Made by a program: the position numbers and the translations under genes. Positions 2,771-35,299 of a stretch of DNA of 64,000 bases are shown piece after piece; position 1 is the first letter of the stretch; each line of letters starts with the position of its first letter. Source of the DNA: a virus. The stretch spans positions 90,999-154,998 of IMG/VR virus record IMGVR_UViG_3300026484_000001; one strand, given 5' to 3'. The notes beneath the pieces are model-generated. The model worked only from the letters and a program-made list of their open reading frames with translations. It made no database searches and had not been told where the DNA came from.

Positions 2771-2903
2771 TGACTTAGTATCAATGGGCGGATGTCTATT
2801 TTTTAATGATCTTCGGTGGAGGCGGTGGAGACTTTTCTTTCGATATTTAAGCTTGTTTTAAGCTGATGTACGGTATAATATAGTATAACTAAAAAGGATT
2901 AAC
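2771..2903 (+). other. Spacer after polymerase fragment 1
   Basis: This is a 133-base gap with no supported gene. A G-rich stretch (2815-2831) could encode a 14-residue glycine-rich peptide from ATG 2806, but it has no ribosome site. The right end holds an early promoter. Confidence 0.5.
2846..2879 (+). promoter_or_regulatory. Early-type promoter
   Basis: Two TTTAAGC boxes spaced one helical turn apart are followed by TACGGTATAAT (-10 at 2874-2879) and a downstream ATAGTAT. It serves the genes inserted between the polymerase halves. Confidence 0.8.
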
Positions 2904-3269
2904 ATGCAACACTTAGACTTCATCATTTTAAACGAAAAGGACATTATCGTTGATAAGAACTGTAACTTCAATCTAGAGACTACTGTAAGTGGATTTGAAA
3001 TCTACTCAGCTGATCGTGTTCATACGGTACGAGGTGACAAAGTTTCAATGACTAAGCAAATGGATAAGATCCGTTACATACCGTTGTATATCAAGATTGA
3101 TGATTGTATGGTGAGAGTCTTTAATATGTACGGACAATTCAATCCTACTGTTACTCGTGCAAAGTCTGAAGCGATTATTCCTCAAATCGATGCGGTTAAA
3201 AAATCAATTGAGGATATGTTCACGATGATTAATGACTCAGAAAATAGTATGAAAGTTCTCATAAAATAA
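2904..3269 (+). CDS. Hypothetical protein, 121 aa, inside the split polymerase locus
   Basis: It follows its own promoter with the common leader AAAAAGGATTAAC before ATG. The product is soluble and mixed-charge, with no catalytic motif recognised. It lies between the two gene 43 fragments, where homing endonucleases are often found in other phages, but it shows no HNH, GIY-YIG or LAGLIDADG signature. Confidence 0.75.
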   Translation: MQHLDFIILNEKDIIVDKNCNFNLETTVSGFEIYSADRVHTVRGDKVSMTKQMDKIRYIPLYIKIDDCMVRVFNMYGQFNPTVTRAKSEAIIPQIDAVKKSIEDMFTMINDSENSMKVLIK

Positions 3270-3287
3270 GCTACATTACGGTACAAT
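3264..3287 (+). promoter_or_regulatory. Early-type promoter, weak -10
   Basis: TAAGC followed by TTACGGTACAAT; the -10 at 3282-3287 has C in place of T. It overlaps the end of the upstream gene and serves the small gene at 3306. Confidence 0.55.
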
Positions 3288-3305
3288 AGTATAAAAAGGT
3301 AAACT

Positions 3306-3455
3306 ATGAAAGTAAAATATATTGGTGGGAAACACCCTATGTTAAAATATGGGGAAGTGTATGAAGTGTTCACATCTAATGTGACTGGTGTCCAAGTTAG
3401 GACAAGAACTGGCTTTGCTGGTATTCAAAATGTAAATTTCACTAAGGAGAAATAA
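3306..3455 (+). CDS. Small SH3-like protein, 49 aa
   Basis: ATG follows an AAAAAGGTAAAC leader. The pattern KYIGG, a K-x-GEVYEV turn and a short beta-rich tail is typical of small SH3/KOW-like barrel proteins seen in many phages. Its stop overlaps the next start (TAATG). Function is unknown. Confidence 0.65.
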   Translation: MKVKYIGGKHPMLKYGEVYEVFTSNVTGVQVRTRTGFAGIQNVNFTKEK

Positions 3456-3724
3456 TGACTGAAGCAAAAGAACTTTCTGCTGATACAATGGATCAGCTTC
3501 GCACTCTAGCACTCGGAATGGGTGTAGATGCAAAAACTATTGAAAATATGACTGATGATGAGGTTCTTATGAATACTCGCCAAATCATAGCTGAACATGC
3601 TGGTGATCGTGCTTCTCCTCACTGGAAAGATTTACAATCTGAAGAAGATAAAAATGCTCGTTTAGCCAAGGCTGAAGCCAAAAGAGAGCGAAAAAGACTT
3701 AAAAAGACAAGATACACTGACTAA
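3455..3724 (+). CDS. Hypothetical protein, 89 aa, charged helical
   Basis: It is translationally coupled to the preceding gene through TAATG. The sequence is strongly helical, with an acidic centre and a C-terminal Lys/Arg-rich helix, suggesting nucleic-acid or protein binding. It is the last of three genes separating the polymerase fragments. Confidence 0.7.
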   Translation: MTEAKELSADTMDQLRTLALGMGVDAKTIENMTDDEVLMNTRQIIAEHAGDRASPHWKDLQSEEDKNARLAKAEAKRERKRLKKTRYTD

Positions 3725-3870
3725 GTGGTCTCGACACCCCAACCTTTCATGTGACATGTTCTGGTTCAGGAGTCGTTCGACTGTAAATACTATCCTGGAG
3801 TGAATATTACTTCTAGTGGGTAGAAAGGTAAATCGTTGTTTTTGTAAGTCAAAGGCTGTATCAGTTCTAC

Positions 3871-3890
3871 AAGCTGATTTAGTATATAAT
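3871..3890 (+). promoter_or_regulatory. Promoter for polymerase fragment 2
   Basis: AAGCTGATTT leads to AGTATATAAT, with the -10 at 3885-3890. It lacks the usual double box. It lets the second gene 43 fragment be transcribed independently. Confidence 0.55.
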
Positions 3891-3894
3891 AGTA

Positions 3895-3930
3895 TTCAAT
3901 AACAAATTACCATTCAATAACAAACTACCA
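3895..3930 (+). repeat. Tandem duplication, 18-base unit, before polymerase fragment 2
   Basis: TTCAATAACAAA(T/C)TACCA occurs twice in tandem with one difference, between the promoter and the ribosome site. Confidence 0.8.
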
Positions 3931-3946
3931 TTTAGGAGGTAAAGAT

Positions 3947-5158
3947 TTGAAACTTTCCATAGAAGAGGTTTTTGCTAAGATTGATTCAGGGGAAATGACC
4001 ATAGATGTCATCAATAACTCGGATTGGTCTCATATAGAAGATGTCAATTTTGATGCACTTGATTCAAAAATTGCATACTTTGATACCCTACAAATGGCAC
4101 TGAAAATTGCGATGAACTCCTTGTATGGAGCACTTGCAAATGTTCACTTTCCATTATTCAATCGTGACATTGCTGCGAGCATTACTGGAAACGGTCGCAT
4201 CTTTATTCAAGGGCTTGCAACTTACATTAACGGAAAGCTACAACAAGCACTTAATTCAAAGGCGAACTTCGTAGTTTACGGTGATACCGATTCAGTTTAC
4301 TTCACTCTACAGGAATTAGTTGATAAGATTTCAACTAAAGATCCGAGTCTAGACACTGCTGGACTATTGGATAAGATTTTAAGCTTCGATAAAAAGCTTC
4401 TGGACCCATGGGTCCAGGAGTATATTGATAAATATGCTGATGACTTTAACGCATTCAATAAAGATCCTATTGGGGCAAAACTTGAAAAAATTGCTGATAA
4501 GGGTATTTTCATTGCTAAAAAGAAATACGCACTGAGAGCAGTTTGGGATGAGGGTTCATTCCTCGTTGAAAATCCTAAAATGGCTGTAACTGGGCTTGAA
4601 ATCGTAAGATCTTCAACACCTATGTTTTGTCGTAAAGAGCTAAAAAAGGTCATTGATATTATCATGGACCATGACGAGCGATCTGTAGTTGACTTTATCA
4701 AAACTGCTGAAGAGGGCTGGTACAAGGCTTCAATTAATGACCTGAGTCGTGTAAGTGGTATCGGAAGCCTGAGTTATGATGGTGTTCCTGGATCACTTTT
4801 CAAAATTGATGATAAGGGTGATTTTGAACTTAATAAGAACGGTCGTAAACTATCCGCTCCTATGAATGTTCGTGCTGCGATGAACTATAATATGTTTATT
4901 GAAGAGCACAACATGAAAAGTTATCCGAAACTGACAACTGACGACAAGATCAAATATGTGTTCCTGACTACACCAAACACTCTGGGTGATGATGTGGTTG
5001 GGTTTTTAGATGAGCAATTCATACACGATGCAAACCTACTAAGATTTGTAGACAAGTCTCGTATGTGGGAAGGATTCTTCATGAGTCCGCTGAATATCAT
5101 GCTTGATGCTGTTGAATATGATATTAATACTAATTTCGAGGTTGATGAATGGTTGTAA
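3947..5158 (+). CDS. 43: DNA polymerase family B, C-terminal fragment (motifs B and C, thumb)
   Basis: Translation starts at TTG 3947 behind a perfect AGGAGGT. The fragment carries motif B KIAMNSLYG (about residues 53-61) and motif C YGDTDSVYF with catalytic D113 and D115, then the thumb region. It begins roughly where fragment 1 ends, so each chain is useless alone. The C-terminus is EVDEWL, the probable sliding-clamp-binding peptide by analogy with the acidic/aromatic C-terminal tail of T4-type polymerases. The same tail recurs on RNase H and modification enzymes in this window. The last bases contain the start codon of the next gene. Confidence 0.95.
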   Translation: MKLSIEEVFAKIDSGEMTIDVINNSDWSHIEDVNFDALDSKIAYFDTLQMALKIAMNSLYGALANVHFPLFNRDIAASITGNGRIFIQGLATYINGKLQQALNSKANFVVYGDTDSVYFTLQELVDKISTKDPSLDTAGLLDKILSFDKKLLDPWVQEYIDKYADDFNAFNKDPIGAKLEKIADKGIFIAKKKYALRAVWDEGSFLVENPKMAVTGLEIVRSSTPMFCRKELKKVIDIIMDHDERSVVDFIKTAEEGWYKASINDLSRVSGIGSLSYDGVPGSLFKIDDKGDFELNKNGRKLSAPMNVRAAMNYNMFIEEHNMKSYPKLTTDDKIKYVFLTTPNTLGDDVVGFLDEQFIHDANLLRFVDKSRMWEGFFMSPLNIMLDAVEYDINTNFEVDEWL

Positions 5159-5331
5159 ATGATTACATGGACATAGTCCAACAAACGAGGTTATTTCTTC
5201 TGACGGTGCAAGCCAACGAGGAAACTGACGAAACTTTGGCTGAAATGTCAATACTTCTGAAATCAGAAGTGACTACACATAATGTTGACCGCTTGGGTTA
5301 TCTTGTAGAAAAAATTGAAAAGGAACACTAA
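5149..5331 (+). CDS. Hypothetical protein, 60 aa
   Basis: Its ATG lies inside the last codons of the polymerase and its stop overlaps the next start, so it is translationally coupled on both sides. The product is helical and acidic with no recognised motif. Confidence 0.6.
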   Translation: MVVNDYMDIVQQTRLFLLTVQANEETDETLAEMSILLKSEVTTHNVDRLGYLVEKIEKEH

Positions 5332-6500
5332 TGCTAAATAGAAATGCCGATGTACTTTACAATGATGTAGATCAAGAGAAAATCAATTCAGCGAATCCTA
5401 AAATGTTCGCTGATGTACTTGAATTTCACAACACCTACATATTTGAGAGACATGAAATTTACAAACGGAAGGAGATTCAAAACCTCCCACAAGATGAATG
5501 GACTGATGACGAAGTCTTTCAAAAATATAGGTTCACAAATGTTCGCCGTGAGATAGATCGTGAGTCGGTGTGGCTTATTAGAAACATCAGTGAAAATAAC
5601 GACTTGACTTTAATTGAAAAGATCCTGAACTCTATCCTATTCAGAACTTTCAATAAATCATCTACGATGGAGCTGTTTGGCTGCCCAATTAAAGATTTTG
5701 ATGATATTGAAAGATATCGACCTATGTTTGAGCGATATGCTGAACTGAATCCAAAATATGTATTCTTCACTCCCGCTTTTAACACAGGTGGTCTTAAAGC
5801 TGCAAATGCATTCCCGGATGCAAATGATATGTATGAATGTACATCATCAGGGAAAGAAGTAAAAATTACCAACGGTGTAGATGAAAAGAGATTGACTCTT
5901 AGGCAAGCCAAAGATTATATTGCGATCAATGAAGATTGGTCTATTATAGGACTTGAGCCGAATATGCCGATGCGCATGATGCACTTGGTTAGAAATGCAT
6001 ATCATAACAAACTCGCTGAAAAGATACTTGAATGTACTGACCAGCGAGAGGTGTTTGATGTACTTCAGGAAGTTAAGGGGTTCAGTAAATTCCTTGCTTA
6101 TCAGGTTTTCGTTGACCTTACATACATCCCTGAATTCAAATTCAGTGAAAATGAGTTCACTGTTAGTGGACCTGGATGTCATAACGGACTTGAGTTTTTA
6201 TTCTCAGACCGTGATGGGTTAAATGATGAAGAGTTACTATTCTGGCTTAGAAATAATCTACCAAACATATGGAAACGAGAAAACCTGAAATATGATCTTA
6301 ATAAGTTATTTGACCATCTTCCTGAACACGACCGTTGCTTAAATGTGATGATGCTTGAAAATTCGTTCTGTGAACTTGGAAAGTATACAAAAGCTAGAAA
6401 GGGCATTGGTCGCCCACGAGTTACATACAAACCTACTGAAGATTCTAATGTTAGAGTTCAGATGGTGAACGAGTGTACACTTGATGAGTGGGCTGATTAA
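5331..6500 (+). CDS. Thymidine-hypermodification protein, 5-hmdU DNA kinase helical / pyrophosphorylase-like family
   Basis: The block RFTNVRREIDRESVWLIRN followed by FRTFNK, and later EFTVSGPGCHNGLEF, matches the family annotated as alpha-glutamyl/putrescinyl-thymine pyrophosphorylase or 5-hmdU-DNA-kinase helical domain. Members act on 5-hydroxymethyluracil in phage DNA, in the route that builds amino-acid-linked thymidines. In some phages this domain is fused to a P-loop kinase; here the kinase is a separate gene at 12699. The C-terminus is TLDEWAD, close to the shared clamp-like tail. It follows DNA polymerase directly, suggesting co-expression with replication. The family call is strong; the exact reaction is inferred. 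Confidence 0.82.
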   Translation: MLNRNADVLYNDVDQEKINSANPKMFADVLEFHNTYIFERHEIYKRKEIQNLPQDEWTDDEVFQKYRFTNVRREIDRESVWLIRNISENNDLTLIEKILNSILFRTFNKSSTMELFGCPIKDFDDIERYRPMFERYAELNPKYVFFTPAFNTGGLKAANAFPDANDMYECTSSGKEVKITNGVDEKRLTLRQAKDYIAINEDWSIIGLEPNMPMRMMHLVRNAYHNKLAEKILECTDQREVFDVLQEVKGFSKFLAYQVFVDLTYIPEFKFSENEFTVSGPGCHNGLEFLFSDRDGLNDEELLFWLRNNLPNIWKRENLKYDLNKLFDHLPEHDRCLNVMMLENSFCELGKYTKARKGIGRPRVTYKPTEDSNVRVQMVNECTLDEWAD

Positions 6501-6646
6501 TGGATAAGGAAGACTTCTTTGACATGTTAGTCGCATTCGTAAAATCGGTGAAGAGTCAGGATTCAACTGACGATTCATTTAGTTGGCATCTGGGTCATTT
6601 AGATTTTCCAGAGGCTATGATAGAACAATTTAATGAAATGATTTAA
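6500..6646 (+). CDS. Small hypothetical protein, 48 aa
   Basis: ATG overlaps the upstream stop (TAATG). The short acidic product has no recognised motif and sits between a modification enzyme and dUTPase in one transcription unit. Confidence 0.6.
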   Translation: MDKEDFFDMLVAFVKSVKSQDSTDDSFSWHLGHLDFPEAMIEQFNEMI

Positions 6647-6657
6647 GGATAATGAAA

Positions 6658-7350
6658 ATGGCAAAATTTAACACAATGACACACGAAGATATGAGAGCAC
6701 TTTTAACGGCACAAGCAAGTTTAAATGTAAAGTACACTGGCGAAGATTGGGCTTCTAAAGTTCCCGTGGCTCACTTCATCGCAGCAATGCAAGCGGAATA
6801 TGGTGAATTACTTGAAAGTTCTCCGAGAACTGGTGACCTTGTTGGTGATGATATGCCAAAGGGTTGGAAGTGGTGGAAGCCATATCTTGAAAATGATGTA
6901 AATAACAACAAAGTTGAGGGTGTTGACATGATTCACTTTGCAATGAGTGCTATGCTTGTTCGCCTTGGTGGTGTTGATGAAGTCATGAGTGAGATTGAGA
7001 AACTTGAGATTCAGCCTGATAAGCCAGAACAAGCTGACGAGTTCATCGCAACTGCACTTATCGGTTCTGTAAGTGGTTTCACGATTAACATTCTTTTCAC
7101 TGACTCACCTCAGGAAGTCACTGCTGCATATATTTACCTTGTTGATGCTCTTTGTGACTATTGTTTAATGACACCTGAAGAGATGGTTGAGCTTTACAAC
7201 AAGAAAAACAAACTGAACTCTGAGAGAATTGAGGGCGGTTACACTAAAGATGCTGACTCATACCAAAAGTATGATGAAGACGGAAACGAAGATAATACTA
7301 AGATGTTTGATTCAGTACCTGATACTGAATGTTCACCTTGTGAATCTTAA
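6658..7350 (+). CDS. Dimeric dUTPase (all-alpha NTP pyrophosphatase)
   Basis: It has the features of the all-alpha dimeric dUTPase/dCTPase family: E-x-x-E(L) in AEYGELLESS, a WKWWK block, a second helix with E-x-x-D (VEGVDMIHF) and a C-terminal NKLNSERIEGGY segment. It would hydrolyse dUTP to dUMP, the substrate of the hydroxymethylase at 14584, and keep plain dUTP out of DNA. The ATG at 6658 is preferred over 6652 because AAGGAT is 7 bases upstream of it. The tail after about residue 200 is acidic and cysteine-bearing. T4 gp56 belongs to the same broad class. Confidence 0.88.
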   Translation: MAKFNTMTHEDMRALLTAQASLNVKYTGEDWASKVPVAHFIAAMQAEYGELLESSPRTGDLVGDDMPKGWKWWKPYLENDVNNNKVEGVDMIHFAMSAMLVRLGGVDEVMSEIEKLEIQPDKPEQADEFIATALIGSVSGFTINILFTDSPQEVTAAYIYLVDALCDYCLMTPEEMVELYNKKNKLNSERIEGGYTKDADSYQKYDEDGNEDNTKMFDSVPDTECSPCES

Positions 7351-7380
7351 AGAATTCTAGTAAATACTAGGATTTAGTTA

Positions 7381-7406
7381 ATTATCATCTCTTTTGAGAT
7401 GATAAT
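7381..7406 (+). terminator. Hairpin after dUTPase
   Basis: ATTATCATCTC and GAGATGATAAT form a perfect 11-bp stem with a TTTT loop. No long T-run follows, so it may be a weak or factor-assisted terminator or an RNA 3'-end stabiliser. Confidence 0.55.
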
Positions 7407-7457
7407 CCAGTTAATTACCCGGAAATGGTTATTTAATATATTCCATTAAGAATAGAA

Positions 7458-7508
7458 TTTTTTTAGTATAGATAATATGGTTTTTTACTATTATCTATAC
7501 TAAAAAAA
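7458..7508 (+). repeat. 20-bp perfect inverted repeat
   Basis: Seven T plus AGTATAGATAATA at 7458-7477 is mirrored at 7489-7508 around an 11-base T-rich loop. Because the T and A tracts are inside the stem, it could terminate transcripts on both strands. Confidence 0.75.
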
Positions 7509-7533
7509 GCCTCTTTTATTTGTAAATATACAA

Positions 7534-7568
7534 TTTTAAGCTTACTCTAAGGAGTTTTTAGTTATAAT
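7534..7568 (+). promoter_or_regulatory. Early-type promoter
   Basis: TTTTAAGC and CTAAGG boxes precede TTATAAT (-10 at 7563-7568) and the AGTATAACTAAAAAGG leader. Confidence 0.75.
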
Positions 7569-7592
7569 ATAGTATAACTAAAAAGGCTTAAC

Positions 7593-7886
7593 ATGAAAAT
7601 GACACCAGAACACTTCAAAAAACTTTCTTCAATCGTAGATGACTTCATTGCGGTAAAAACTCCCGAACATTTAGTAAACTATTGTAATTCTATTGCTGGT
7701 GATGAAAGAATTCATGATCTTGAAACTCGTTTTGCATGGGACATCTACTGGGCAATCCCGAGAACTCTGCGAAGTGTTTGGTATGAAGATGCTAAACAGT
7801 ATAACGATAACCATATGACAACTGCTCTTAAGAAAGCGGTAAAAACTTCAATGGGTGAACTTTATCCATTCACGAAAAGGATATAA
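7593..7886 (+). CDS. Hypothetical protein, 97 aa
   Basis: First gene after a promoter, with the usual AAAAGGCTTAAC leader. A soluble product with a tryptophan- and tyrosine-rich centre (WDIYWAIPRTLRSVWYED) and no recognised motif. It opens the operon that probably carries host-takeover functions. Confidence 0.7.
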   Translation: MKMTPEHFKKLSSIVDDFIAVKTPEHLVNYCNSIAGDERIHDLETRFAWDIYWAIPRTLRSVWYEDAKQYNDNHMTTALKKAVKTSMGELYPFTKRI

Positions 7887-7888
7887 TT

Positions 7889-8296
7889 ATGACAAGAGCA
7901 AAATGGCAAGCAACAAGAAGAAAGGGTGTATTTTATACACAGACATTTAGCAGAGGGGCGGTTCTAGCATATTCTGAAATTGAATTCATTGATGAAATCC
8001 TTATATCAGAGCGAGACGGTGATTTATATGTGCACTTTGACATCAACTTCAAGTCAGGAGAGAAGAAGCAGCAGAAATATACCATCGAGCCTGAAATGAA
8101 AACTGTTTCAGTTTCAAGATTGTTCCGCTCAAATAAAGATGTTCAGAAGAAAATGGGCTTCCGTGACTATATTGACCTCTTATCTACTGAAGAAGCTGAA
8201 GAAAAATGTGCAGCTTATAAAGCAGCAAAATCAGACCATGCGAAGCTGACAGCAAGATTTAAGAAATATTGTAAACTATCTGCTAAATTAAGTTAG
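7889..8296 (+). CDS. Hypothetical protein, 135 aa, basic
   Basis: Starts 2 bases after the upstream stop with AAAGGAT as ribosome site. Basic at both ends, beta-rich centre, helical lysine-rich C-terminus. No family recognised; nucleic-acid binding is possible. Confidence 0.7.
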   Translation: MTRAKWQATRRKGVFYTQTFSRGAVLAYSEIEFIDEILISERDGDLYVHFDINFKSGEKKQQKYTIEPEMKTVSVSRLFRSNKDVQKKMGFRDYIDLLSTEEAEEKCAAYKAAKSDHAKLTARFKKYCKLSAKLS

Positions 8297-8320
8297 TTTT
8301 AAGTAAATACACGGTATAAT
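8290..8320 (+). promoter_or_regulatory. Early-type promoter
   Basis: TTTTAAG box, ACACGGTATAAT (-10 at 8315-8320), then ATAGTAT. It starts within the end of the upstream gene. Confidence 0.7.
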
Positions 8321-8350
8321 ATAGTATATCAAAAGTTAAAAGGAAATATT

Positions 8351-8782
8351 ATGTTAGATGTAGCAATAGCAATCACTTCAGAGGCATTCAGAGGCAAGTT
8401 CGACAAAGGTGGAAAGCCTTACATCCTTCACTGCCTTCGTGTCATGAACGGTGTTATACACTTGGGAGAGGATCATGCATGTGTAGCTATAATGCACGAT
8501 TTAATCGAAGACACAAAATACACTGCCCAGGATCTTTATGATCTAGGGTTCAACTCGGATGTTGTGAACAATGTCGTAGCTATGACACACATCAAGGGTG
8601 TACCATATTCTGAATATGTTATGGAAATTAGTAAATTTGCAATCGCAACTGAGGTTAAGAAATCAGACCTCAAGGATAACAGTGATATCACTCGTTTAAA
8701 AGGAATCACTGAGAAAGATACTAAGCGAATGGAAAAATACCATAAAGCTTACACATTCCTTACAACTGGGTCTGGATACTAA
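8351..8782 (+). CDS. HD-domain phosphohydrolase, SpoT/MESH1-like
   Basis: The HD signature is complete: H27 in ILHCLRV, H49-D50 in MHDLIEDT, and a KxxDLxDN motif near residue 110. The spacing is that of the hydrolase domain of SpoT and the small MESH1 enzymes, which remove the 3'-pyrophosphate of (p)ppGpp; some also use NADPH. At 143 aa it is a stand-alone hydrolase with no synthetase domain. Inference: it could blunt the host stringent response during infection, or act on a modified nucleotide. It follows its own promoter. Confidence 0.82.
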   Translation: MLDVAIAITSEAFRGKFDKGGKPYILHCLRVMNGVIHLGEDHACVAIMHDLIEDTKYTAQDLYDLGFNSDVVNNVVAMTHIKGVPYSEYVMEISKFAIATEVKKSDLKDNSDITRLKGITEKDTKRMEKYHKAYTFLTTGSGY

Positions 8783-8793
8783 AAAGGCAAAAT

Positions 8794-9315
8794 ATGCAAA
8801 TTAAAATGTTTAATTTCGATGGTGCTGATGATAAGCACTACAATGTGAGCAAAAGCTCGCATGTTTATGACAAACGGTTCACATCAGTGTTCCATAGGGA
8901 TGGGTTCATCTCTGATACAAGCTATAAGAAGCTCATGAGGCTCGCAATTCTAGGTGGTTTAACATCATTTAGACATAAGGGTCCAGTGGTTCTGAGTTTT
9001 GAGGACTACAGAGGTAGGAATTTCAGTATTCTTATGATTCTTGATAGATTTGACCTTGTTAATGACATTTTTATTATAACGGTTTTTAAGGGTTCAAAAG
9101 AGTTCCCATTCTACAAGCATTTCACCAAAGAGCATAACCGCCTATGGATATCCCCTGATAAGTTTGTACTGCCGTACATGGACACGAAAACTCGTACGAA
9201 GCAGAAAATGGAACGAGAACGACACTTGGTTGATATCGGGTGCTGGGACGAAGATGTGAAATTCATAGACACGATGAATCGCGCAAAAGTAAAAAGGTCA
9301 AATGGTGGATATTAA
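8794..9315 (+). CDS. Hypothetical protein, 173 aa
   Basis: It starts with AAAAAGG upstream and overlaps the MazF-like gene by 14 bases. The product is basic with a beta-rich centre. No motif is recognised. Its coupling to the MazF-like gene makes it the only adjacent candidate for a partner or antitoxin, but it is larger than usual for one. Confidence 0.65.
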   Translation: MQIKMFNFDGADDKHYNVSKSSHVYDKRFTSVFHRDGFISDTSYKKLMRLAILGGLTSFRHKGPVVLSFEDYRGRNFSILMILDRFDLVNDIFIITVFKGSKEFPFYKHFTKEHNRLWISPDKFVLPYMDTKTRTKQKMERERHLVDIGCWDEDVKFIDTMNRAKVKRSNGGY

Positions 9316-9622
9316 ACAAAATGATATTTGGATGGTGAGTCTAGGTCACGATGCCGTTGGGCATGAGCAAAAAGGTGACCGCCCATTCGTGGTGATCAGT
9401 TCTGATGAATATAATAGGAACTCGGGAACTCCCGTAGGCTTCTTTCTCAGTACATCACTCAAAAAATCAACAAACCGCTTCGCTGTAGAGCTAGTTAGTG
9501 GTGTTGCTAACATTTCTCAAGTAAGAACACTTTCAAGTCTGAGATTCAAGAAGTTCATGAACAATGCTGGTAAGGGCTCGACTCAAAGGCTTATGGAAAA
9601 ATTCATAGCAGAAGTTCTATAA
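9302..9622 (+). CDS. MazF/PemK-like mRNA interferase
   Basis: The N-terminal QNDIWMVSL...GDRPFVVIS with a following YN, and the later ISQVRTLSSLRF, match the conserved core of the MazF/PemK/CcdB fold. In MazF the GDxR(P) arginine and a Thr/Ser after the QVRT-like strand form the RNase site, and both are present. The usual length is about 110 aa; here 106. No typical MazE-like antitoxin gene lies next to it. It may cleave host mRNA during takeover, or act as a decoy for a host antitoxin. Confidence 0.85.
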   Translation: MVDIKQNDIWMVSLGHDAVGHEQKGDRPFVVISSDEYNRNSGTPVGFFLSTSLKKSTNRFAVELVSGVANISQVRTLSSLRFKKFMNNAGKGSTQRLMEKFIAEVL

Positions 9623-9656
9623 TTTAAGCTGTCCCTAAGATGTTTTTAGGTATAAT
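9623..9656 (+). promoter_or_regulatory. Early-type promoter
   Basis: TTTAAGC and CTAAG boxes, then TTTAGGTATAAT with the -10 at 9651-9656, followed by ATAGAATAAC. Confidence 0.78.
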
Positions 9657-9680
9657 ATAGAATAACTAAAAAGGACTAAC

Positions 9681-9872
9681 ATGACAGATTTAATTATATT
9701 GGGTATCGAGTGTGAATGGGATATTGGTCAAGAGGGTGTTTGTTTCTTAGGATATGATGCTGTTCATAATTTCATTAGCCGAAACTGGGATGATGAAGAA
9801 ATGGAAATGACTCAAGTCGAGGCTGAAGAGCAAGGGCTTCTTAGTACATTTAACTTTGTAGTAGAGAAATAG
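9681..9872 (+). CDS. Small acidic hypothetical protein, 63 aa
   Basis: Starts behind AAAAAGGACTAAC. Very acidic C-terminal half. First gene of the operon that carries the nucleotidase, transferase, PLP enzyme and DNA kinase, but no function can be read. Confidence 0.65.
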   Translation: MTDLIILGIECEWDIGQEGVCFLGYDAVHNFISRNWDDEEMEMTQVEAEEQGLLSTFNFVVEK

Positions 9873-9879
9873 GAGAAAT

Positions 9880-10419
9880 ATGAAAAATAAAATTATAGGG
9901 GTCGATGTAGACCTGACTTTATGTGACTCTGTTACACCATGGCAAAATTGGTATCGTGATCTAACTGGACATGATATCAGTGAAGAAATTGATGAAGTGA
10001 ATAATGATCTTCAAGACCTTATGAAGCGACACAACGATCCGCTATCATTTTGGAAAAAACCTGATCTTTATGACAAGATTCCACCGTTTCAAGATGCAAT
10101 TGATGTACTTCAGCGGTTAAGTGACAGAGGATACACAATCCTTTTTATAAGCACTTGTTTTCCTGAACATGAGAACTCAAAGAGAATGTTCCTTAAAAGA
10201 CACTTCCCCATGGGTTCTGGTTTTATTTCAACATCTGACAAGCAGTACATTACAATGGACTGGTTCATTGATGACTATAAAAAGAACTTGAAAGCGGTTC
10301 AGGCTCACCAACCTGAGTGTAATTGTTTTCACATCAAAAGTGGAATAAATAAGGCTGATGGATTCCCATTCGGTGATTGGGATGAATTTGAAAGTATGAT
10401 ATTAGCATCGGAGGATTAA
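9880..10419 (+). CDS. HAD-family 5'(3')-deoxyribonucleotidase-like phosphatase
   Basis: Motif I is VDVDLTL (nucleophile Asp and acid Asp). A later FISTCF matches motif II (Ser/Thr), a Lys lies in the SDKQYI region and WFIDDYKKN matches motif IV. This layout is that of the small HAD nucleotidases that dephosphorylate dNMPs. Placed at the head of the modification operon, it might remove dTMP or another nucleotide that competes with the hydroxymethylated one; that is inference. It ends one base before the next gene, in a shared operon. Confidence 0.78.
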   Translation: MKNKIIGVDVDLTLCDSVTPWQNWYRDLTGHDISEEIDEVNNDLQDLMKRHNDPLSFWKKPDLYDKIPPFQDAIDVLQRLSDRGYTILFISTCFPEHENSKRMFLKRHFPMGSGFISTSDKQYITMDWFIDDYKKNLKAVQAHQPECNCFHIKSGINKADGFPFGDWDEFESMILASED

Positions 10420-10420
10420 T

Positions 10421-11656
10421 ATGGATTTAAAGCGGTTCACAGAACTGAATGGTGTTGAGGAGATCAGTGACCTTGAACAAGGTATGGATTTTCGTGACCC
10501 AAAAGTTAGGCGGGAGGTTTTCCTGAGATTCTATGGTTTTCACCTTGAGTACAAATCACATCCAGGTGCAGTTTACTATGTTATGCCATTTTTAGCTAAC
10601 AAGTACAAATGGGACCTTGAAACGAAATTGTGGTTTGCATTCATTAATGGCGCAACACAGAATCCTCTAACATCTTGGGTTATTTTCAATCACTTCCCAA
10701 CAGTTGATACTGATCCCGAAGTCATGGAAAAATGGCATAGGGAATATTGGAGAAACTTAGATTATGATATTGATCGTCGTTACCAAAAGGGGCACTTCGT
10801 TGAGATGTTCGAAAATTACAAGGAGTTGTTAAATGGTAAGACTCAAGTGGAGTATTTTGGTGATATTTGTAGTTCTGATGATCCATATAAAAACTTCGAG
10901 GCTTTATGGGATGTTGTTTATAATGACTTTTTCATGTATGGTCGCCTTTCTACATTTTCATATACTGAGTATCTGAAGATTTCAGGGCTGAACATTGATT
11001 GTAATACATTACTGATACATGATAAGTCAGGCTCCAAATCACATAGGAATGGTCTTTGTAAGGTGCTCGGTCGTGACGACATGGATGTTGATAAGCGAAA
11101 CGAAATACTGATTCCTGGTCTTGAAAATGGTCACACCAAAGAGATTATGAACTGGCTTGAAAAAGAGGGTGAACTTCTTATGAGCGAAGCCAAAGAGCGG
11201 TTCGCTGGTACTGACTTCATTGAAGATGTAAATTATTACACTTTAGAGAGCACACTTTGTTGTTACAAATCGTGGCATAGGGTCAATCGTCGTTATGCGA
11301 ATGTCTATAATGATATGTTCCATGACCGCATCCTCAAGGCTGAAACTCGTGATTGGTATGAGATTGACGGTATGAGCATCAACTTCAAAGATTTTTGGGA
11401 AGCCAGGGAGGCTTATCTCCCTGAAGAACTTCGACTTGAGATTCAGGAAAATGATCCCGGATTGGTTAAGGTTAAACAAAATTGGTATAGGCTGACAGGT
11501 CAAGTGCCTATGATGGAAATGTACGACCCTGTGTTCAAGAATGACTTTCTTAAGAACTATGAAAACCGTGCAATTGAATGGTATGGCAAACCACCTACAC
11601 CAAAGCCTAAAAAGGTTAAAATAGAATCACCAGATATAACGGAGGAGTGGCTATGA
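10421..11656 (+). CDS. Amino acid:DNA transferase-like thymidine hypermodification enzyme
   Basis: The N-terminal third has FHLEYKSHPGAVYYVMPFL and LWFAFINGATQNPLTSWVIF, a pattern I associate with the amino-acid:DNA transferases of phage thymidine-hypermodification clusters. In characterised phages these displace an activated phosphate on 5-hydroxymethyluracil in DNA with an amino acid. It is next to the PLP enzyme and DNA kinase, as expected for such a pathway. The C-terminus is DITEEWL, the shared clamp-like tail. The codons of that tail (GGAGGAG) also serve as ribosome site for the next gene. The family call is fairly strong; which amino acid is used is unknown. Confidence 0.74.
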   Translation: MDLKRFTELNGVEEISDLEQGMDFRDPKVRREVFLRFYGFHLEYKSHPGAVYYVMPFLANKYKWDLETKLWFAFINGATQNPLTSWVIFNHFPTVDTDPEVMEKWHREYWRNLDYDIDRRYQKGHFVEMFENYKELLNGKTQVEYFGDICSSDDPYKNFEALWDVVYNDFFMYGRLSTFSYTEYLKISGLNIDCNTLLIHDKSGSKSHRNGLCKVLGRDDMDVDKRNEILIPGLENGHTKEIMNWLEKEGELLMSEAKERFAGTDFIEDVNYYTLESTLCCYKSWHRVNRRYANVYNDMFHDRILKAETRDWYEIDGMSINFKDFWEAREAYLPEELRLEIQENDPGLVKVKQNWYRLTGQVPMMEMYDPVFKNDFLKNYENRAIEWYGKPPTPKPKKVKIESPDITEEWL

Positions 11657-12702
11657 ATGAAAGACAGTCTATAAATGACGACACACATGACAGTGTAATT
11701 CCTGATGGGGCTGAACGATGGGCTGATTATATGAAAGTTCTTACTCCCGTAGAAAAGAAGTCAGATGGTATGTGGTACAAAAGGGAAGACAAATTTGCCC
11801 TCCTTGGTATCAATACAATCAACGGTTCAAAATGTAGACAACTTCTACACCTATTTGAAACTCGCCCAGCTGGGGTTGATACTGTAATCCATGCTACAAA
11901 TGTGAACAGTTCACCTCAAACACCCATGACTGCGGCAATGGCACACCACTATGGCCTGAGATGTATTCAAGTTGCTGGTGGTTCAAGTCATAAAAGTTTA
12001 TCAACTAAGGACTTGCCACTATTCGCTACTATGTTCGGAACTGAATATGAAACGACAATGGGCTCAGGCTTCAATGTGAATATTCAGCGAAGAGTTCGTG
12101 ATATTATGAAAGACTTCCCAAATTCGTTTACGATTGAGCGGGACATCACACTAGATCATAAATTAGAGTTCAATGGACCTGAAAAAATTCTAGCATTTCA
12201 CGATGTCGGTGCTTATCAGACTAAGAACTTTCCTGATCATATTGAGGAATTGGTCATACCGTTTGGTTCAGCAAACTCAACAACATCAGTATTGTTGGGT
12301 CTATCGAGGGATCGTCCTAAAAATCTTAAGAAAATACACCTTGTCAATGTAGGAGTTGACAAACGAGCTTATATGTTTGAAAGACTTGACATAATGGGTG
12401 CTGATTATTCTCAGTATGAATTTGTATGGCACGAAAGCGGTTACCCTTATTCAAAAACACTGAAGAATGTCAAGATTGATGATATCACATTCCATTATAG
12501 GTATGAGGCAAAAGTTTATCAGCATATACTTGATTTTCATCCTGAGTTGTTTAAAGAAACGACACTATTTTGGGTCATTGGATCTGTTCCTGACCTTGCA
12601 ACAACCGCCAAAAACATTGGCAAGGCTATCCCAGAAGAGATAAATGAATTCTTCTGGGAAGCAAAACCTGAAATTGACGAATGGCTGAAGGAGTCTGAAT
12701 GA
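11653..12702 (+). CDS. PLP-dependent enzyme, fold type II (ACC deaminase / D-cysteine desulfhydrase-like)
   Basis: WYKREDKFALLGINTINGSKCRQL contains the Schiff-base lysine in the GSK context of fold type II enzymes. The following ATNVNSSPQTPMTAAMAHHYGLRC matches their substrate-binding loop, and VIPFGSANSTTS resembles the phosphate-binding loop. Known phage hypermodification clusters include PLP enzymes that trim the amino acid attached to thymidine, for example by decarboxylation. Here it overlaps the transferase gene and the kinase gene, and it carries EIDEWL ten residues from its C-terminus. ATG 11653 is chosen over GTG 11647 because of GGAGGAG spacing. Its substrate and reaction are inferred. 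Confidence 0.76.
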   Translation: MNERQSINDDTHDSVIPDGAERWADYMKVLTPVEKKSDGMWYKREDKFALLGINTINGSKCRQLLHLFETRPAGVDTVIHATNVNSSPQTPMTAAMAHHYGLRCIQVAGGSSHKSLSTKDLPLFATMFGTEYETTMGSGFNVNIQRRVRDIMKDFPNSFTIERDITLDHKLEFNGPEKILAFHDVGAYQTKNFPDHIEELVIPFGSANSTTSVLLGLSRDRPKNLKKIHLVNVGVDKRAYMFERLDIMGADYSQYEFVWHESGYPYSKTLKNVKIDDITFHYRYEAKVYQHILDFHPELFKETTLFWVIGSVPDLATTAKNIGKAIPEEINEFFWEAKPEIDEWLKESE

Positions 12703-13412
12703 GAGTTATAAATTACATCGGTGCAAATGCAACTGGTAAATCGACAAGGGTTACTGTCCTTGTAAACTACTTAGAATCTAAGTTCGATGTTGAAGATGTA
12801 GAATTCACATATACTAAGAAGTCTAAGAAAAATGGTGACAAGCAAGTCACTACAAAAGTCGGACTTCGCTTCTCAAATGGAGTTGTAATCTTTGGTAAGT
12901 TTGACGGAAGTCGTAAATGGATTGGCCTTGACACTGGTATGTGTTCATCTTGGGATCAAAGATCAGCATTTATCACTGAAATGAAAGCTCGTGGGGCTGA
13001 AACAGTAGTATTTGAGGGTTATTTTAACAACCGCAGTAAGATTGCTGGTCCTGAGACATTTCACAATGCTGGTGCTGATGAAGTTCATATTCTAGCGAGT
13101 TTTTACGACAAATGTGAAGACTTCTTGATGAGAACTAATATCAGATCAGGAAAGTTGAGTCGTGGTATGGAATGGGCTGAAAATGCTCCTGGTTGGAAAG
13201 ACAACAAGGGCATCATCAACTCACAAAAATATTGGCTAGAACAAGCTAAAGAAAATGACACGGTCACTCGTATTGACATTGATGAATCAAGAGGTTATCT
13301 TGTTGAAAGATTCTTTGAAAAAGACTTTGATTATAATACATTTTATGAGTCATTTGAAAGTCCCTCAGTTGAAGCGAAAGCCCCTGGAGCGGACTTAGAT
13401 GAGTGGTTCTAA
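12699..13412 (+). CDS. P-loop 5-hydroxymethyl-dU DNA kinase
   Basis: INYIGANATGKST at the N-terminus is a Walker A motif, followed by about 220 aa typical of the small P-loop kinases of thymidine hypermodification clusters. Such enzymes phosphorylate 5-hydroxymethyluracil in polymerised DNA, the activation step before amino acid transfer. The gene overlaps the PLP enzyme by 4 bases (ATGA) and closes the operon. The C-terminus DLDEWF is the shared clamp-like tail. It could be a nucleotide kinase instead, but the neighbours favour a DNA kinase. Confidence 0.78.
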   Translation: MRVINYIGANATGKSTRVTVLVNYLESKFDVEDVEFTYTKKSKKNGDKQVTTKVGLRFSNGVVIFGKFDGSRKWIGLDTGMCSSWDQRSAFITEMKARGAETVVFEGYFNNRSKIAGPETFHNAGADEVHILASFYDKCEDFLMRTNIRSGKLSRGMEWAENAPGWKDNKGIINSQKYWLEQAKENDTVTRIDIDESRGYLVERFFEKDFDYNTFYESFESPSVEAKAPGADLDEWF

Positions 13413-13757: not shown

Positions 13758-14587
13758 TGAAGAATCTTATGAAATGTGTAGTACACTATATGCAAACTGG
13801 CGAACACTATGAGTTTGACACAATGGAAGAGCAAAGAGAATACCAAAAGGTTTCTACGAAAATGTTACTTGCTGGCGGTGGTGATACTATTCGTGAGATG
13901 GCGACATTAGCTATGATACATGCAAAACCAGTTGAGGGAAAGCATGACTGGGATGGCTTACACGGAAAAACATTCGTTGAGGTCAAAAATGAAACTATGT
14001 CTGAGAAAGGCAAGTTTGGTGGAAAGGGCATCTTCAACAATCTCACTTGGAGATCATATGAGAAATATTCAAAGGGTGGTATATATCTTCAAGGCTGTTA
14101 TGGTCGTGATGGTATTTTGGTCGCAGTTGTAGCATTTCGCATTGAGCACCTACTTCCTAAGCTACATAAAGCACTGACTAGAGTAATGCCAAACGGTGAT
14201 GTCTCCGGGAAGAATGTTACGATCAATATTAGTGCCAGTGATTTCCCAGAAGAGACCGAATTAGTGTATCTTCGTGAGGATGCACATCGCTCTCTATTCC
14301 CAAAGGCAATGTGGGCTCTTATGGCCGTTAGTTATGCTAACGGAACTAAGATTAAGGGTAGATCATACCTGAAAACCGAAAAGAAGTCAAAGGTCAAATT
14401 CACTAACCAAAAGGAAACTGCCGCGAAATATACCAAAGTTGCTGAAATGGTTCGAACCATTTACAACTCAAATATATTCACGATCAACTATGATACTGAA
14501 AGAATTGAAATTGGTGATACATCAGTCAAACTTTCATCACTCAAACAACGATATCGTCGTGTAATCAAAAATAAGGAAGCTAAATGA
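13757..14587 (+). CDS. Putative PD-(D/E)XK nuclease, 276 aa
   Basis: HDWDGLHGKTFVEVKNE fits the D-x(n)-E-x-K core of PD-(D/E)XK restriction-type nucleases, with beta strands around it and an aromatic YLQGCYGRDGILVAVVAF strand after. It overlaps the hydroxymethylase gene by 4 bases (ATGA), so the two are co-translated. A nuclease linked to base modification could degrade unmodified host DNA and spare phage DNA, returning nucleotides to the pool; this is inference. The basic C-terminal half may bind DNA. Confidence 0.6.
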   Translation: MKNLMKCVVHYMQTGEHYEFDTMEEQREYQKVSTKMLLAGGGDTIREMATLAMIHAKPVEGKHDWDGLHGKTFVEVKNETMSEKGKFGGKGIFNNLTWRSYEKYSKGGIYLQGCYGRDGILVAVVAFRIEHLLPKLHKALTRVMPNGDVSGKNVTINISASDFPEETELVYLREDAHRSLFPKAMWALMAVSYANGTKIKGRSYLKTEKKSKVKFTNQKETAAKYTKVAEMVRTIYNSNIFTINYDTERIEIGDTSVKLSSLKQRYRRVIKNKEAK

Positions 14588-15693
14588 AACATATAACAGG
14601 AAAAACAATAAACGAGGTTGTGTACAAGTCGCTTGATGCACTGATTTCAGAGGGTTATAGATCCCCATCTAGGAACGGTGACATTAGTACGATTTACAAT
14701 GCATTCGTTGAAATTGAAAATCCTCGTTCTAGACATTTAAGTCTAGTTGGCCGTGATAGCAACATCTTTGCTACTATCGCTGAAACATTCTGGGTGTTCG
14801 CTGGTGATAATGCAATTGACCCTTATTTACAATTCTTTTTACCTCGTGCTAGAGATTATGCTGATGATGGTGAAACATGGCGAGGCGGTTATCCCGAGAG
14901 AATCAAAAATGGTAACCAGATTGATGATGTTATTCAGCAATTCAGAAATGAGGGGCTTTATACTCGTCGTGCTGTAACTGCTATTTATGACACAAACCTT
15001 GATACTGCTGTGAATCTGAGAAAGGTTTATGGCCTTGAAACTACTAAAGATCGCCCATGTAACCTGATTATGGACTTCTTCGTAACTCCTGACAAGCGGT
15101 TACACATGAATGTTAAGTCTCGTTCAGGTGATGTGCTTTGGGGATTTGGCTCAATTAACATTTTTGAGTGGACTTTCTACCAAGAGATGATACTTCAGTT
15201 CTTACAAGATGAGATTGACCCTGATGTTACTATGGGCGGTTACAATCACCATGTGACAAACTTACACCTATATGATTTCAGCGGTGCTCAAGGGTATGCT
15301 GTTGTTGAAAATAAGCTGAAGCAATCACTTGGTGTTCAGAACTTTGACCGTTTGGTTTTTCCTGATGTAGATTTTGTACATAGTTATTTCAAGTTCTTCG
15401 TCGCTCGTGTAAACACATTCATTGAAGAGGGTCGCACTGACTACACTGAAATGGTTGAAGAAATGACAAGGTTGTTTACTGATAATGGTATTCCAACTGA
15501 AGACAACTTACTTTATGACTACATGAGAGTGACAGTTGCATACACTGCCGCAAAGAACATGAAGCTTCCAAAGGGTATAAAAACACCCGATATTGAAGTT
15601 AATCTTGATGCTTGTGGGCCTGAGTTTGTCCGTGCTATCGCCAATTCAAAGTTTCGTAAGTTCACAATCTATTACAATGGAGTTAAGCAATGA
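14584..15693 (+). CDS. Thymidylate synthase family enzyme, probable dUMP hydroxymethylase
   Basis: The thymidylate synthase fold is clear: TFWVFAGDNAIDPYLQFFLPRARDY near the N-terminus, catalytic Cys159 in DRPCNLIMDFF, and KSRSGDVLWGFGSINIFEW. In ordinary thymidylate synthases the last block reads RSxDxxLGxPFN; here one extra residue precedes the Asn (N192), a change near the pyrimidine-binding residue. Together with the surrounding modification genes this suggests hydroxymethylation of dUMP rather than methylation. It would supply hmdUMP for incorporation in place of thymidine. True thymidylate synthase activity cannot be excluded. It overlaps genes on both sides by 4 bases. Confidence 0.82.
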   Translation: MKHITGKTINEVVYKSLDALISEGYRSPSRNGDISTIYNAFVEIENPRSRHLSLVGRDSNIFATIAETFWVFAGDNAIDPYLQFFLPRARDYADDGETWRGGYPERIKNGNQIDDVIQQFRNEGLYTRRAVTAIYDTNLDTAVNLRKVYGLETTKDRPCNLIMDFFVTPDKRLHMNVKSRSGDVLWGFGSINIFEWTFYQEMILQFLQDEIDPDVTMGGYNHHVTNLHLYDFSGAQGYAVVENKLKQSLGVQNFDRLVFPDVDFVHSYFKFFVARVNTFIEEGRTDYTEMVEEMTRLFTDNGIPTEDNLLYDYMRVTVAYTAAKNMKLPKGIKTPDIEVNLDACGPEFVRAIANSKFRKFTIYYNGVKQ

Positions 15694-17019: not shown

Positions 17020-17048
17020 GCAAGGTTTAAGCTACATTATAGTATAAT
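17016..17048 (+). promoter_or_regulatory. Early-type promoter
   Basis: TTAAGC and TTTAAGC boxes, then TAGTATAAT with the -10 at 17043-17048 and a downstream ATAGTAT. It begins in the last codon of the upstream gene. Confidence 0.75.
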
Positions 17049-17075
17049 ATAGTATATTATCTGAAAAGGCTTAAA

Positions 17076-17315
17076 ATGAATAACATCCAATTAAAACTAC
17101 ACAAGATCTCAACACTTCTGAACCTCTTATCAAAGGTGACTTTGGAGGAAGAAGTGTTGATTGATACTTTCTCAACATCTATTTTATTCACTATTGATGA
17201 AATTGATGAGCGAGCTGTTCGTGAATCTTTTGAACAAAATGGTGTTGAGTTTTCATCTCGTATGGAAAGATCCGGTCGTTGGACATTTGACATTGATTTG
17301 TTAGGAGACGAGTAG
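17076..17315 (+). CDS. Hypothetical protein, 79 aa
   Basis: First gene after a promoter with the AAAAGGCTTAAA leader. Soluble, acidic; no recognised motif. Its stop overlaps the next start (TAGTG). Confidence 0.65.
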   Translation: MNNIQLKLHKISTLLNLLSKVTLEEEVLIDTFSTSILFTIDEIDERAVRESFEQNGVEFSSRMERSGRWTFDIDLLGDE

Positions 17316-27936: not shown

Positions 27937-28623
27937 ATGTTAAATGAAAATACGAGGAAAGTGCTCAAATCACTCACTTCTGTGTCTGGCTCAGCCATTC
28001 TAAGATATCCAATATCAACTGTGTCTCAAAAGGACAAGAGTTTGATCGCATTCGTCGATCTAGAGGCTTTAGATGAGGCTGAGTTTGGTGAATTCGGTGT
28101 GAGTTACCTGAGTGACCTATTAAGTCTTATTGACTTTTATGATGATGCTAATATTGAGATCAATGCTGGTATCATCGACATTAAGACTGAAACTTCTCAT
28201 CAGAGATATCGTACAACTGAACTTGATATGATGAAAGCATTTGATGTTAGTCCTAAGATTCTTGATAATCTACTGGCTGAAACACCTCAAATCCGCTTCG
28301 ATATCTCAAAAGACGAGCTTGACCGCTATAAGAAGATTGCTTCTTTAGTGAAATCTGAGTATTTCGTAGTTCAGGACGGTAGTATCACTGTTTGTAAGCT
28401 TGATGCGACAAATACCTTACTTGATGAGTCTACAACTGACCATATCATGGATGCTTCGACTGAAGATCGTGTTGCCTTTGCCATGACAAATATCGATAAG
28501 ATCCCGTCTGGTAGTTATGAAGTTTCATTGATCAAAAATCCTAAATCTGGTAATTATATCAGCCTTTGGACTAGTGAAAATGATCCGTTCAAAATCGTGG
28601 TATCAGTAGCGAAGACTTTCTAA
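27937..28623 (+). CDS. 45: DNA polymerase sliding clamp, gp45-like
   Basis: The length is exactly that of T4 gp45 (228 aa). The internal pattern matches a two-domain clamp with acidic surface strands (YDLNG-like YLSDLLSLIDFYDDANIEI) and a C-terminal KNPKSGNYISLW strand pair. It would encircle DNA as a trimer and tether polymerase, RNase H and, by inference, the modification enzymes that share the DEWL tail. In T4 it also activates late transcription. It lies immediately upstream of gp32; the clamp-loader genes are not in the window. Confidence 0.82.
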   Translation: MLNENTRKVLKSLTSVSGSAILRYPISTVSQKDKSLIAFVDLEALDEAEFGEFGVSYLSDLLSLIDFYDDANIEINAGIIDIKTETSHQRYRTTELDMMKAFDVSPKILDNLLAETPQIRFDISKDELDRYKKIASLVKSEYFVVQDGSITVCKLDATNTLLDESTTDHIMDASTEDRVAFAMTNIDKIPSGSYEVSLIKNPKSGNYISLWTSENDPFKIVVSVAKTF

Positions 28624-34215: not shown

Positions 34216-35299
34216 TTATTCACACTTACAAATGCGCAATTTATATATTGCTTTAGGAAATGCTCGCCCAAAGAAGAAAAATGGTGTTTTCGTAACTGAA
34301 GATTTCATAAAAATGTTTTATCATCAGATGTTAATGTCATTTAACCTCATTTCCCGTGAATTTAAAGATTACGGTGAAGTGGTTGTGTGTATCGATGCTA
34401 GAACTTACTGGAGAAAGGATATTTATCCAGCATTCAAGGCTCACCGTAAAAAAGATCGCGAAGAAAGTGATATTGACTTTGATGAATTCTTCAAATATGC
34501 AACTGAATTTATTAGCTTACTTAAAACCGCCTTTCCTTACACTGTAATTGAGGTTGATAAGTCAGAAGCTGATGATATTATCGGTGTACTTGCTAAAGAG
34601 TACGGAAGAACTGAGAAAGTTGTAGCTGTGTCTTCAGATAAGGATATGAAACAGATTCTTGAAGACGGTGCGGAGCTTTATGACCCTATTAAAAAGAAAT
34701 TCATAAGAATGACACCTGAAGAATACAAAGCTTGGAAATTTGAGCATATTCTGTGTGGTGATGAGGGTGATAACATACCTCATATCAAAAGAGAAACGAT
34801 TTTCACTGAAAATTACTTAAAATATCTTGCGACTGAAGGAATTCACCTCAAAGATACAAAAACTCAGACAATTTGTGAGCAATATAATGAATTGTCTATC
34901 GCTGAACACCTTTTTGCTAAATATGATGTGTGGCGAGAGACTAAAAAGGACGGAAAGTTCAAAGATATCTACAAACCGACTCCATTTGGCCCAGCTGGTG
35001 CGGTTAAATTCATCGGAAACGGTAAAGAAGACCTTGCGGAAAGCTTAAAGAGCAACACTCTTTACATGAAGCACTTCAATCGGAATAAAGAACTTGTTCT
35101 GAACGACTATATTCCTGATTATCTCCGTGCTGAGATTATAGAGGAATATAAGACTGTTGAAAGAACTTATAACTCAAAAGATATGATGTCATTTTTCATG
35201 AAGCATGGTTTGACACAGCATATGATGAATATCACTGCTTTTGAACTCCAGGCTCAGAGAATGCACCCTACTACTTCCTCAACGGACGAATGGCTCTAG
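34202..35299 (+). CDS. rnh: RNase H / 5' nuclease, T4 Rnh-like
   Basis: FEN-family active-site blocks are visible: MVLIDYSHL, VVVCIDARTYWRKDIYPAFKAHR, DKSEADDIIGVLA and SSDKDMKQI, followed by a CGDEGDNIP helix-hairpin region. It removes RNA primers from lagging strands. At 365 aa it is longer than T4 RNase H (305 aa), with extra C-terminal sequence ending STDEWL, the same tail as DNA polymerase. FEN nucleases of archaea and eukaryotes also bind their clamp by a C-terminal peptide. ATG 34202 is preferred to TTG 34199. Fibre-like genes follow, as after rnh in T4. Confidence 0.92.
   Translation: MVLIDYSHLQMRNLYIALGNARPKKKNGVFVTEDFIKMFYHQMLMSFNLISREFKDYGEVVVCIDARTYWRKDIYPAFKAHRKKDREESDIDFDEFFKYATEFISLLKTAFPYTVIEVDKSEADDIIGVLAKEYGRTEKVVAVSSDKDMKQILEDGAELYDPIKKKFIRMTPEEYKAWKFEHILCGDEGDNIPHIKRETIFTENYLKYLATEGIHLKDTKTQTICEQYNELSIAEHLFAKYDVWRETKKDGKFKDIYKPTPFGPAGAVKFIGNGKEDLAESLKSNTLYMKHFNRNKELVLNDYIPDYLRAEIIEEYKTVERTYNSKDMMSFFMKHGLTQHMMNITAFELQAQRMHPTTSSTDEWL

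Follow-up and report, generated by a model that had tools for sequence, protein, structure and literature searches.

Known clamp-binding peptides and hypermodification clusters

In phages such as ViI and phiW-14, a large share of thymine is replaced by bulky bases that are made on the DNA after its synthesis. The thymidine hypermodification clusters of M6, ViI and phiW-14 encode a HMUDK_hel protein, a P-loop kinase, a pyridoxal phosphate (PLP) enzyme and a thymidylate-synthase-like enzyme, and their chemistry on 5-hydroxymethyl-dU (5-hmdU) is post-replicative. Here we analyze a stretch of 64,000 nucleotides (the window; bases 90,999-154,998 of the 154,998-base virus record IMGVR_UViG_3300026484_000001), which encodes enzymes of the same kinds, presumably acting by the same type of chemistry. 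In this phage, DNA polymerase, RNase H and four DNA-hypermodification enzymes end in or near a common short peptide of the DEWL type, called the tail below. Judged from sequence comparison, the tail is very probably a C-terminal clamp-binding motif of the T4 type, which would dock in the pocket of a gp45-like sliding clamp and place DNA-modifying enzymes at the replication fork.

The sliding clamp-binding motif (SCBM) of T4 and RB69 is present on gp43, gp55 and gp33. Like the tail described here, it is C-terminal, follows a divergent linker, is hydrophobic and acidic, is nearly identical across proteins and occurs in a genome with one gp45-type clamp. The letters differ, however: the T4 motif is of the SLDFLF type, with DFLF where the present tail has DEWL. 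In T4 the tail is on polymerase, gp55 and gp33 only, whereas here it is also on RNase H and the four hypermodification enzymes. The C-termini of T4 gp55 and gp33 bind gp45 and are interchangeable (PMC2988020, PMC7892883), and the similarity among the C-termini of gp43, gp55 and gp33 is not conserved across all T4-like phages (T4 late transcription review, PMC2988020).

In T4, one DNA-modifying enzyme is also a clamp binder: an interaction of alpha-glucosyltransferase with gp45 was reported (Sommer 2004) and confirmed by pull-down (PMC13216743), although the alpha/beta ratio is mainly set by expression and not by the clamp interaction (2026 study, PMC13216743). This is a single enzyme without a C-terminal tail of the T4-polymerase type; it ends in KEQFDIITK. 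About 20 residues before the C-terminus of this protein (T4 36624-37826) is YEFLY, which resembles the gp55 tail SLDFLY and, from its letters, could be the gp45 contact. A preliminary description of the window had not known a coupling of base modification to the moving fork to be described. The T4 enzyme is a partial precedent, as it connects base modification with the clamp, while a common tail on several enzymes of one pathway was not found described: no account of a clamp tail on thymidine-hypermodification enzymes was found in the open-licence literature, which omits key papers. One clamp-bound modifying enzyme was known in T4, and the tagging of DNA-level steps of a hypermodification pathway appears to be undescribed in the papers searched.

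Six tails in one genome

The tails, their proposed partner and an untailed enzyme of the same cluster are located in the window as follows (ORF, open reading frame).

5141..5155, + strand: VDEWL tail of the C-part of a split family B DNA polymerase (ORF 3947-5158); PolB Pfam/PHROG matches; kept in relatives.
6480..6497, + strand: LDEWAD tail of a 389-aa HMUDK_hel (5-hmdU DNA kinase helical domain) protein (ORF 5331-6500); PF18723, E 1.3e-61.
11639..11653, + strand: TEEWL tail of a 411-aa transferase-like protein (ORF 10421-11656); PHROG_3271; kept in relatives.
12673..12699, + strand: IDEWLKESE tail of a 351-aa PLP-type enzyme (ORF 11647-12702); kept in contigs G001 and G008.
13395..13409, + strand: LDEWF tail of a 237-aa HMUD2-type 5-hmdU DNA kinase (ORF 12699-13412); PF18747, E 3.7e-9; kept in relatives.
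35282..35296, + strand: TDEWL tail of a 366-aa T4-type RNase H (ORF 34199-35299); PF02739 and RNaseH_C; kept in contigs G002, G003, G004 and L244.
27937..28623, + strand: gp45-type sliding clamp, the partner proposed for all tails; tblastn, Foldseek, iterated profile.
14584..15693, + strand: thymidylate-synthase-like enzyme of the same cluster, which acts on the free nucleotide and has no tail (an internal contrast); PF00303.

The two 5-hmdU DNA kinase families (PF18723, PF18747) and PF00303 are thus encoded together, as in a thymidine hypermodification pathway. Homologs of the transferase-like protein are annotated as alpha-glutamyl/putrescinyl thymine pyrophosphorylase clade 2, and those of the PLP-type enzyme as tryptophan synthase beta-like or threonine ammonia lyase. 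The preliminary description had reported these six tails on proteins of otherwise unrelated bodies, and both points were borne out. The families are PolB, HMUDK_hel, HMUD2 and 5'-3' exonuclease/RNaseH_C, and two proteins have no Pfam match. When every ORF of 40 aa or more in the record was scanned for [DE][DE]W within the final 15 residues, exactly these six were found and no others. In a structural model of the HMUDK_hel protein (31 sequences) the body is confident, while residues 370-389 are disordered (pLDDT ~38), with a short helix at 384-388, where DEWAD is located.

Six genes carry [DE]EW[LFA] in the final 9 residues, against 0.026 expected from the frequency of this motif elsewhere in the proteome (Poisson p ~4e-13). 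When the final 40 residues were shuffled in 197 genes, no more than two tails arose in any of 5000 trials, and none of 20,000 random gene sets from the same genome had a mean pairwise tail similarity as high as that of the six. The tails are therefore almost certainly not a product of chance, of biased composition or of recent copying of one DNA segment to the ends of several genes. Two of the four DEWL stretches do have identical codons, as a copied segment would, but synonymous sites otherwise differ; moreover, as described below, tails persist where linkers and bodies have diverged, and in other lineages a different peptide marks the same set of genes.

Comparison with relatives revealed a seventh carrier, an 84-aa gp33-like protein with the tail AVSEWE (record 83906-84160, upstream of the window). 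Its relatives match PHROG_254 and, with E values of 0.002-0.003 that fall short of the curated cut-off, Pfam Trans_coact (gp33). A TEWEK look-alike in a 527-aa protein (record 45205-46788) was considered as a further client and dropped because its relatives lack the tail; it was taken as chance.

The polymerase gene of the window (1256-5158) consists of two ORFs, 1256-2770 and 3947-5158, separated by small ORFs. It is also split in Vibrio phage 1.244.A and phiKT1024, and unsplit in contig G009.

Tails are kept in close relatives while bodies diverge

Megablast of 13.5 kb against phages gave no match at the DNA level, and neither did tblastn with the kinase; relatives were therefore gathered through the HMUDK_hel and transferase-like proteins. 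In the uncultured contigs obtained, the bodies are 50-80% identical. Alignments of seven protein families showed that the tail stands at the very C-terminus, behind a linker of variable length and sequence. The tail is retained almost universally on polymerase, HMUDK_hel protein, transferase-like protein, kinase and RNase H. Examples in close relatives are the following.

Polymerase: LDDWDF, LEEWF, MDEWLI, MEEWM, MEEWI.
HMUDK_hel protein: SLENW, TDEWLKTH, SISEWL, SIDEWL, SLKEW.
Transferase-like protein: IIDDWA, ISEWL, IEEWV, LGEWI.
Kinase: IFDEW, DTEWF, MDEWL, MDEWI.
RNase H: SLSEWV, GLEEWV, AMDEWI, GLSEWV.
gp33-like protein: IEEWV, LDEWI, MSEWL.
PLP enzyme: EIENW, INEWIGE.

A PLP-family match in contig G002 has no tail. 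The preliminary description had proposed comparing tail conservation with body divergence in related phages, and had held that loss of the tail in close relatives that keep the enzymes would speak against a clamp-binding role. The outcome was the opposite of such a loss, since nearly all relatives keep the tail while bodies and linkers diverge.

Two further tailed proteins were observed in these contigs. In L096, a D12-class N6-adenine DNA methyltransferase (11152-11931; PF02086, E 4.8e-11) adjoins the HMUDK_hel gene and ends in SIDEWL; this is a modification enzyme of different chemistry with the same tag. L118 encodes a 700-aa fusion of GNAT acetyltransferase, amidoligase-like and HMUD2 kinase parts that ends in MDEWL (16313-18415; the same ORF is at 18398-20500 of contig G004).

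Distant lineages carry other letters, matched within each genome

In cultured phages, the same enzymes have different tails, which are again common within each genome.

ViI: polymerase VNLLSMMGKKG, HMUDK_hel protein VNLLDRLKKPE, transferase-like protein VNLMSLLKR, kinase VSLLGLMRKA.
KN2-1: VNLLAMM, VNLLERM, VNLMSLM, NVLAMM; LIMEstone1 and Serratia 3M have the same tail type as ViI and KN2-1 (VNLL.MM).
Vibrio 1.244.A ([KR][KR]LW): RKLW, KRLW, RKLW, KRLW.
Cygsa01 ([VL].DFF): VMDFF, VLDLF, LMGFF, VFDLF.
phiW-14 (LG.FF): polymerase KLGAFF, amino acid:DNA transferase (PF18724, 85893-86825) GLGSFF, DexA-like nuclease GLGGFF, gp33 SLGGF, P-loop protein GLGGFF, DUF4326 protein GLGAFF.

With 20,000 random gene sets per genome, none reached the observed tail similarity in seven of eight genomes, and ten did in VPALA. 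When tails were reassigned among four lineages and four families (one genome per tail type), the true assignment was the single best of 13,824; the permutation alignments used a single scoring matrix and families selected by hand. Homology defined these families before any tail was scored, but the tails of the first genomes had already been seen by then. Tails thus change together across lineages, and this fits one common partner.

The PIP box (Q-x-x-hydrophobic-x-x-aromatic-aromatic) is also a short peptide for a trimeric clamp, and LG.FF of phiW-14 and.DFF of Cygsa01 resemble its aromatic end. The EW tails have neither Gln nor paired aromatics and do not match the pattern; the KRLW and VNLL.MM versions are outside it as well.

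In Delftia phage phiW-14, the DUF4326 protein (81170-81487), whose clamp-type tail reads GLGAFFT, is a candidate DNA-level enzyme. Another phiW-14 protein (31347-32132), annotated as terminase small subunit, has the tail HGLGGFFKG and only weak P-loop matches; it is possibly a misnamed DNA kinase.

The sliding clamp as the probable partner of the tail

T4 provided a control. When T4 gene ends were searched with the T4 polymerase tail alone, gp55 (SLDFLY) and gp33 (TLDFLL) ranked next. The window encodes its own clamp, as the preliminary description had supposed for ORF 27937-28623. Among annotated proteins, the clamps of Campylobacter phages match it best (tblastn, gp45 E 2e-6), the top Foldseek matches of its model are T4/RB69 gp45 structures (6drt, 1czd, 1b77), and an iterated profile joins it with T4 gp45 and Ackermannviridae clamps. 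A sequence search of this ORF against the PDB retrieved no clamp.

Campylobacter phage NCTC12673, which has the closest annotated clamp and no hypermodification enzymes, carries NTLDEWL on gp43, SLFDDWM at the end of RNase H, SELDIWEN on a gp55-type sigma factor and SDIDIWE on a homolog of the gp33-like protein (hidden Markov model search, E 3e-7). Thus, polymerase and late-transcription proteins (gp43, gp55-type and gp33-like) have a common tail in NCTC12673, and in the window's clade polymerase and the gp33-like protein do (weak Trans_coact match, E 0.002). Furthermore, gp55 tails track polymerase tails in T4, Cygsa01, phiA8-29, NCTC12673, phiW-14, ViI and 1.244.A, a fit that only 2 of 5040 permutations reach. 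V/L-D-E-W-L/F tails are hydrophobic and acidic like the T4-type SCBM, whereas the KRLW and VNLL.MM types do not fit this description. Phage M6 has 5-hmdU kinase-type enzymes and hypermodified thymidine, a modified base of the same class (PMC6449724); unlike the present phage it has no common tail and no tail similarity among its enzymes, and a search of 50 of its 59.4 kb found no gp45-like protein. In many small uncultured phages, the hypermodification enzymes stop at the end of the fold, without a tail. The T4 control, NCTC12673, the matching of polymerase and gp55 tails and the identity of the clamp support the earlier proposal that the tail is probably a clamp-binding tag.

A possible relation between the net charge of the clamp and that of the tail (EW tails are acidic, KRLW tails basic) was also examined. 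Vibrio 1.244.A has the most acidic clamp, but those of phiA8-29 and VPALA are unremarkable, so no claim is made.

The same sharing among polymerase, RNase H and modification enzymes would be explained equally well if the tail bound another replisome protein, such as the single-stranded DNA-binding protein gp32, the clamp loader or the helicase-primase, and the difference between polymerase and modification tails in phiA8-29 and contig L113 (see below) would also suit such a partner. We consider this improbable, since the carriers include a gp55-type sigma factor and gp33-like proteins, whose T4 counterparts use the C-terminal peptide for gp45, and since the T4 control retrieves exactly gp55 and gp33. 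Still less probable is a tag that gathers modification enzymes and polymerase on one non-clamp scaffold or in a phage-made compartment. A short, lineage-specific common peptide does look like a cargo tag, but it is absent from the thymidylate-synthase-like enzyme of the same pathway, which acts on the free nucleotide, and present on polymerase, RNase H, gp55-type and gp33-like proteins; in addition, no scaffold candidate was seen.

In bacteria, degradation tags and peptides for the host beta clamp are both short and C-terminal, and in this general respect the tail could be either. Both are very unlikely. The tails are unlike ssrA-type tags, and the letters of the EW tail do not match the beta-clamp-binding pentapeptide (QL[SD]LF-like, or QL.LF); moreover, the lineage letters track the phage polymerase and gp55 tails, and these phages encode their own gp45-like clamp.

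Exceptions

Several findings weigh against binding of all tails to the clamp. In phiA8-29 and contig L113, the modification enzymes have K[KR]LW, whereas the polymerase has VLKFFK or VFSFIKKK; in this lineage, the small Cys-rich protein (described below) and gp55 side with the polymerase tail. Because the two tails differ, this lineage may have two pockets, two affinities or two partners. In VPALA, neither the C-part of the polymerase nor the kinase has a tail; a frameshift was considered, and no KRLW was found in other frames just past the stops. The PLP enzymes of ViI, KN2-1, 1.244.A, phiA8-29 and Cygsa01 lack a tail, and PLP enzyme tagging is restricted to the window's clade. The gp55-like candidate of the present genome ends in MDSFMYK and not in EW. 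Finally, the N-terminal half of the clamp model, on which the Foldseek matches were obtained, is of low confidence.

Proposed mechanism and significance

Tails, their conservation, their matching within genomes and their co-occurrence with known clamp-binding proteins are observed directly, and clamp binding remains the reading that we prefer. In the mechanism that we propose, a short peptide with a hydrophobic anchor, borne on a flexible linker that evolves fast, would dock into a pocket in the C-terminal face of the trimeric gp45-like clamp. The polymerase tail would give processivity, and that of RNase H would allow work at Okazaki fragments. The enzymes that act on the DNA polymer (HMUDK_hel protein, HMUD2 kinase, transferase-like protein and here also the PLP enzyme) would use the same peptide, so that 5-hmdU inserted by the polymerase might be phosphorylated and substituted just behind the fork. 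The three clamp pockets may serve as a tool belt, with hand-over from enzyme to enzyme in a presumptive order. Free-nucleotide steps (thymidylate-synthase-like enzyme, nucleotide kinase) have no such tail. More broadly, we lean towards the idea that the clamp serves as an organizing platform in those T4-like phages whose thymine is hypermodified, that each lineage puts its own peptide on every DNA-polymer enzyme to form a co-replicational assembly line, and that the peptide is a genome-internal code for finding further clamp clients.

A clamp tag on kinase and transferase would be a direct, testable answer to how these enzymes keep pace with replication, and it bears on why newly made DNA escapes exposure, unmodified, to host nucleases. 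Matching of lineage-specific tails may provide a simple sequence readout of the clamp interactome in any T4-like phage: in T4 it picks out gp55 and gp33, and in the present analysis RNase H, gp33-like proteins, the D12 adenine methyltransferase, the DUF4326 protein and a small, Cys-rich protein with a link to DNA ligase. The tails and clamps would also be ready pairs for engineering processive DNA-modifying enzymes in vitro.

Further observations

The small Cys-rich (zinc-ribbon-like) protein always has a tail of the polymerase type of its own phage. Its record coordinates are the following.

ViI: 30355-30567.
KN2-1: 39015-39230.
Vibrio 1.244.A: 60010-60306.
Cygsa01: 109399-109710.
LIMEstone1: 26219-26443.
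phiA8-29: 67069-67290.

In KN2-1 the gene is just upstream of one whose end matches ViI DNA ligase. In VPALA (54673-56496) and 3M (135321-137018) the Cys-rich protein is apparently fused to the front of a ligase-like protein, and the VPALA fusion has an internal AKPLW. The small protein may be the clamp adaptor of the ligase.

Two other genes of the window were assigned by eye. ORF 9302-9622 may encode a PemK/MazF-type endoribonuclease, and 15690-16490, which is 46% conserved in contig G001, may encode a 2-oxoglutarate-dependent oxygenase.

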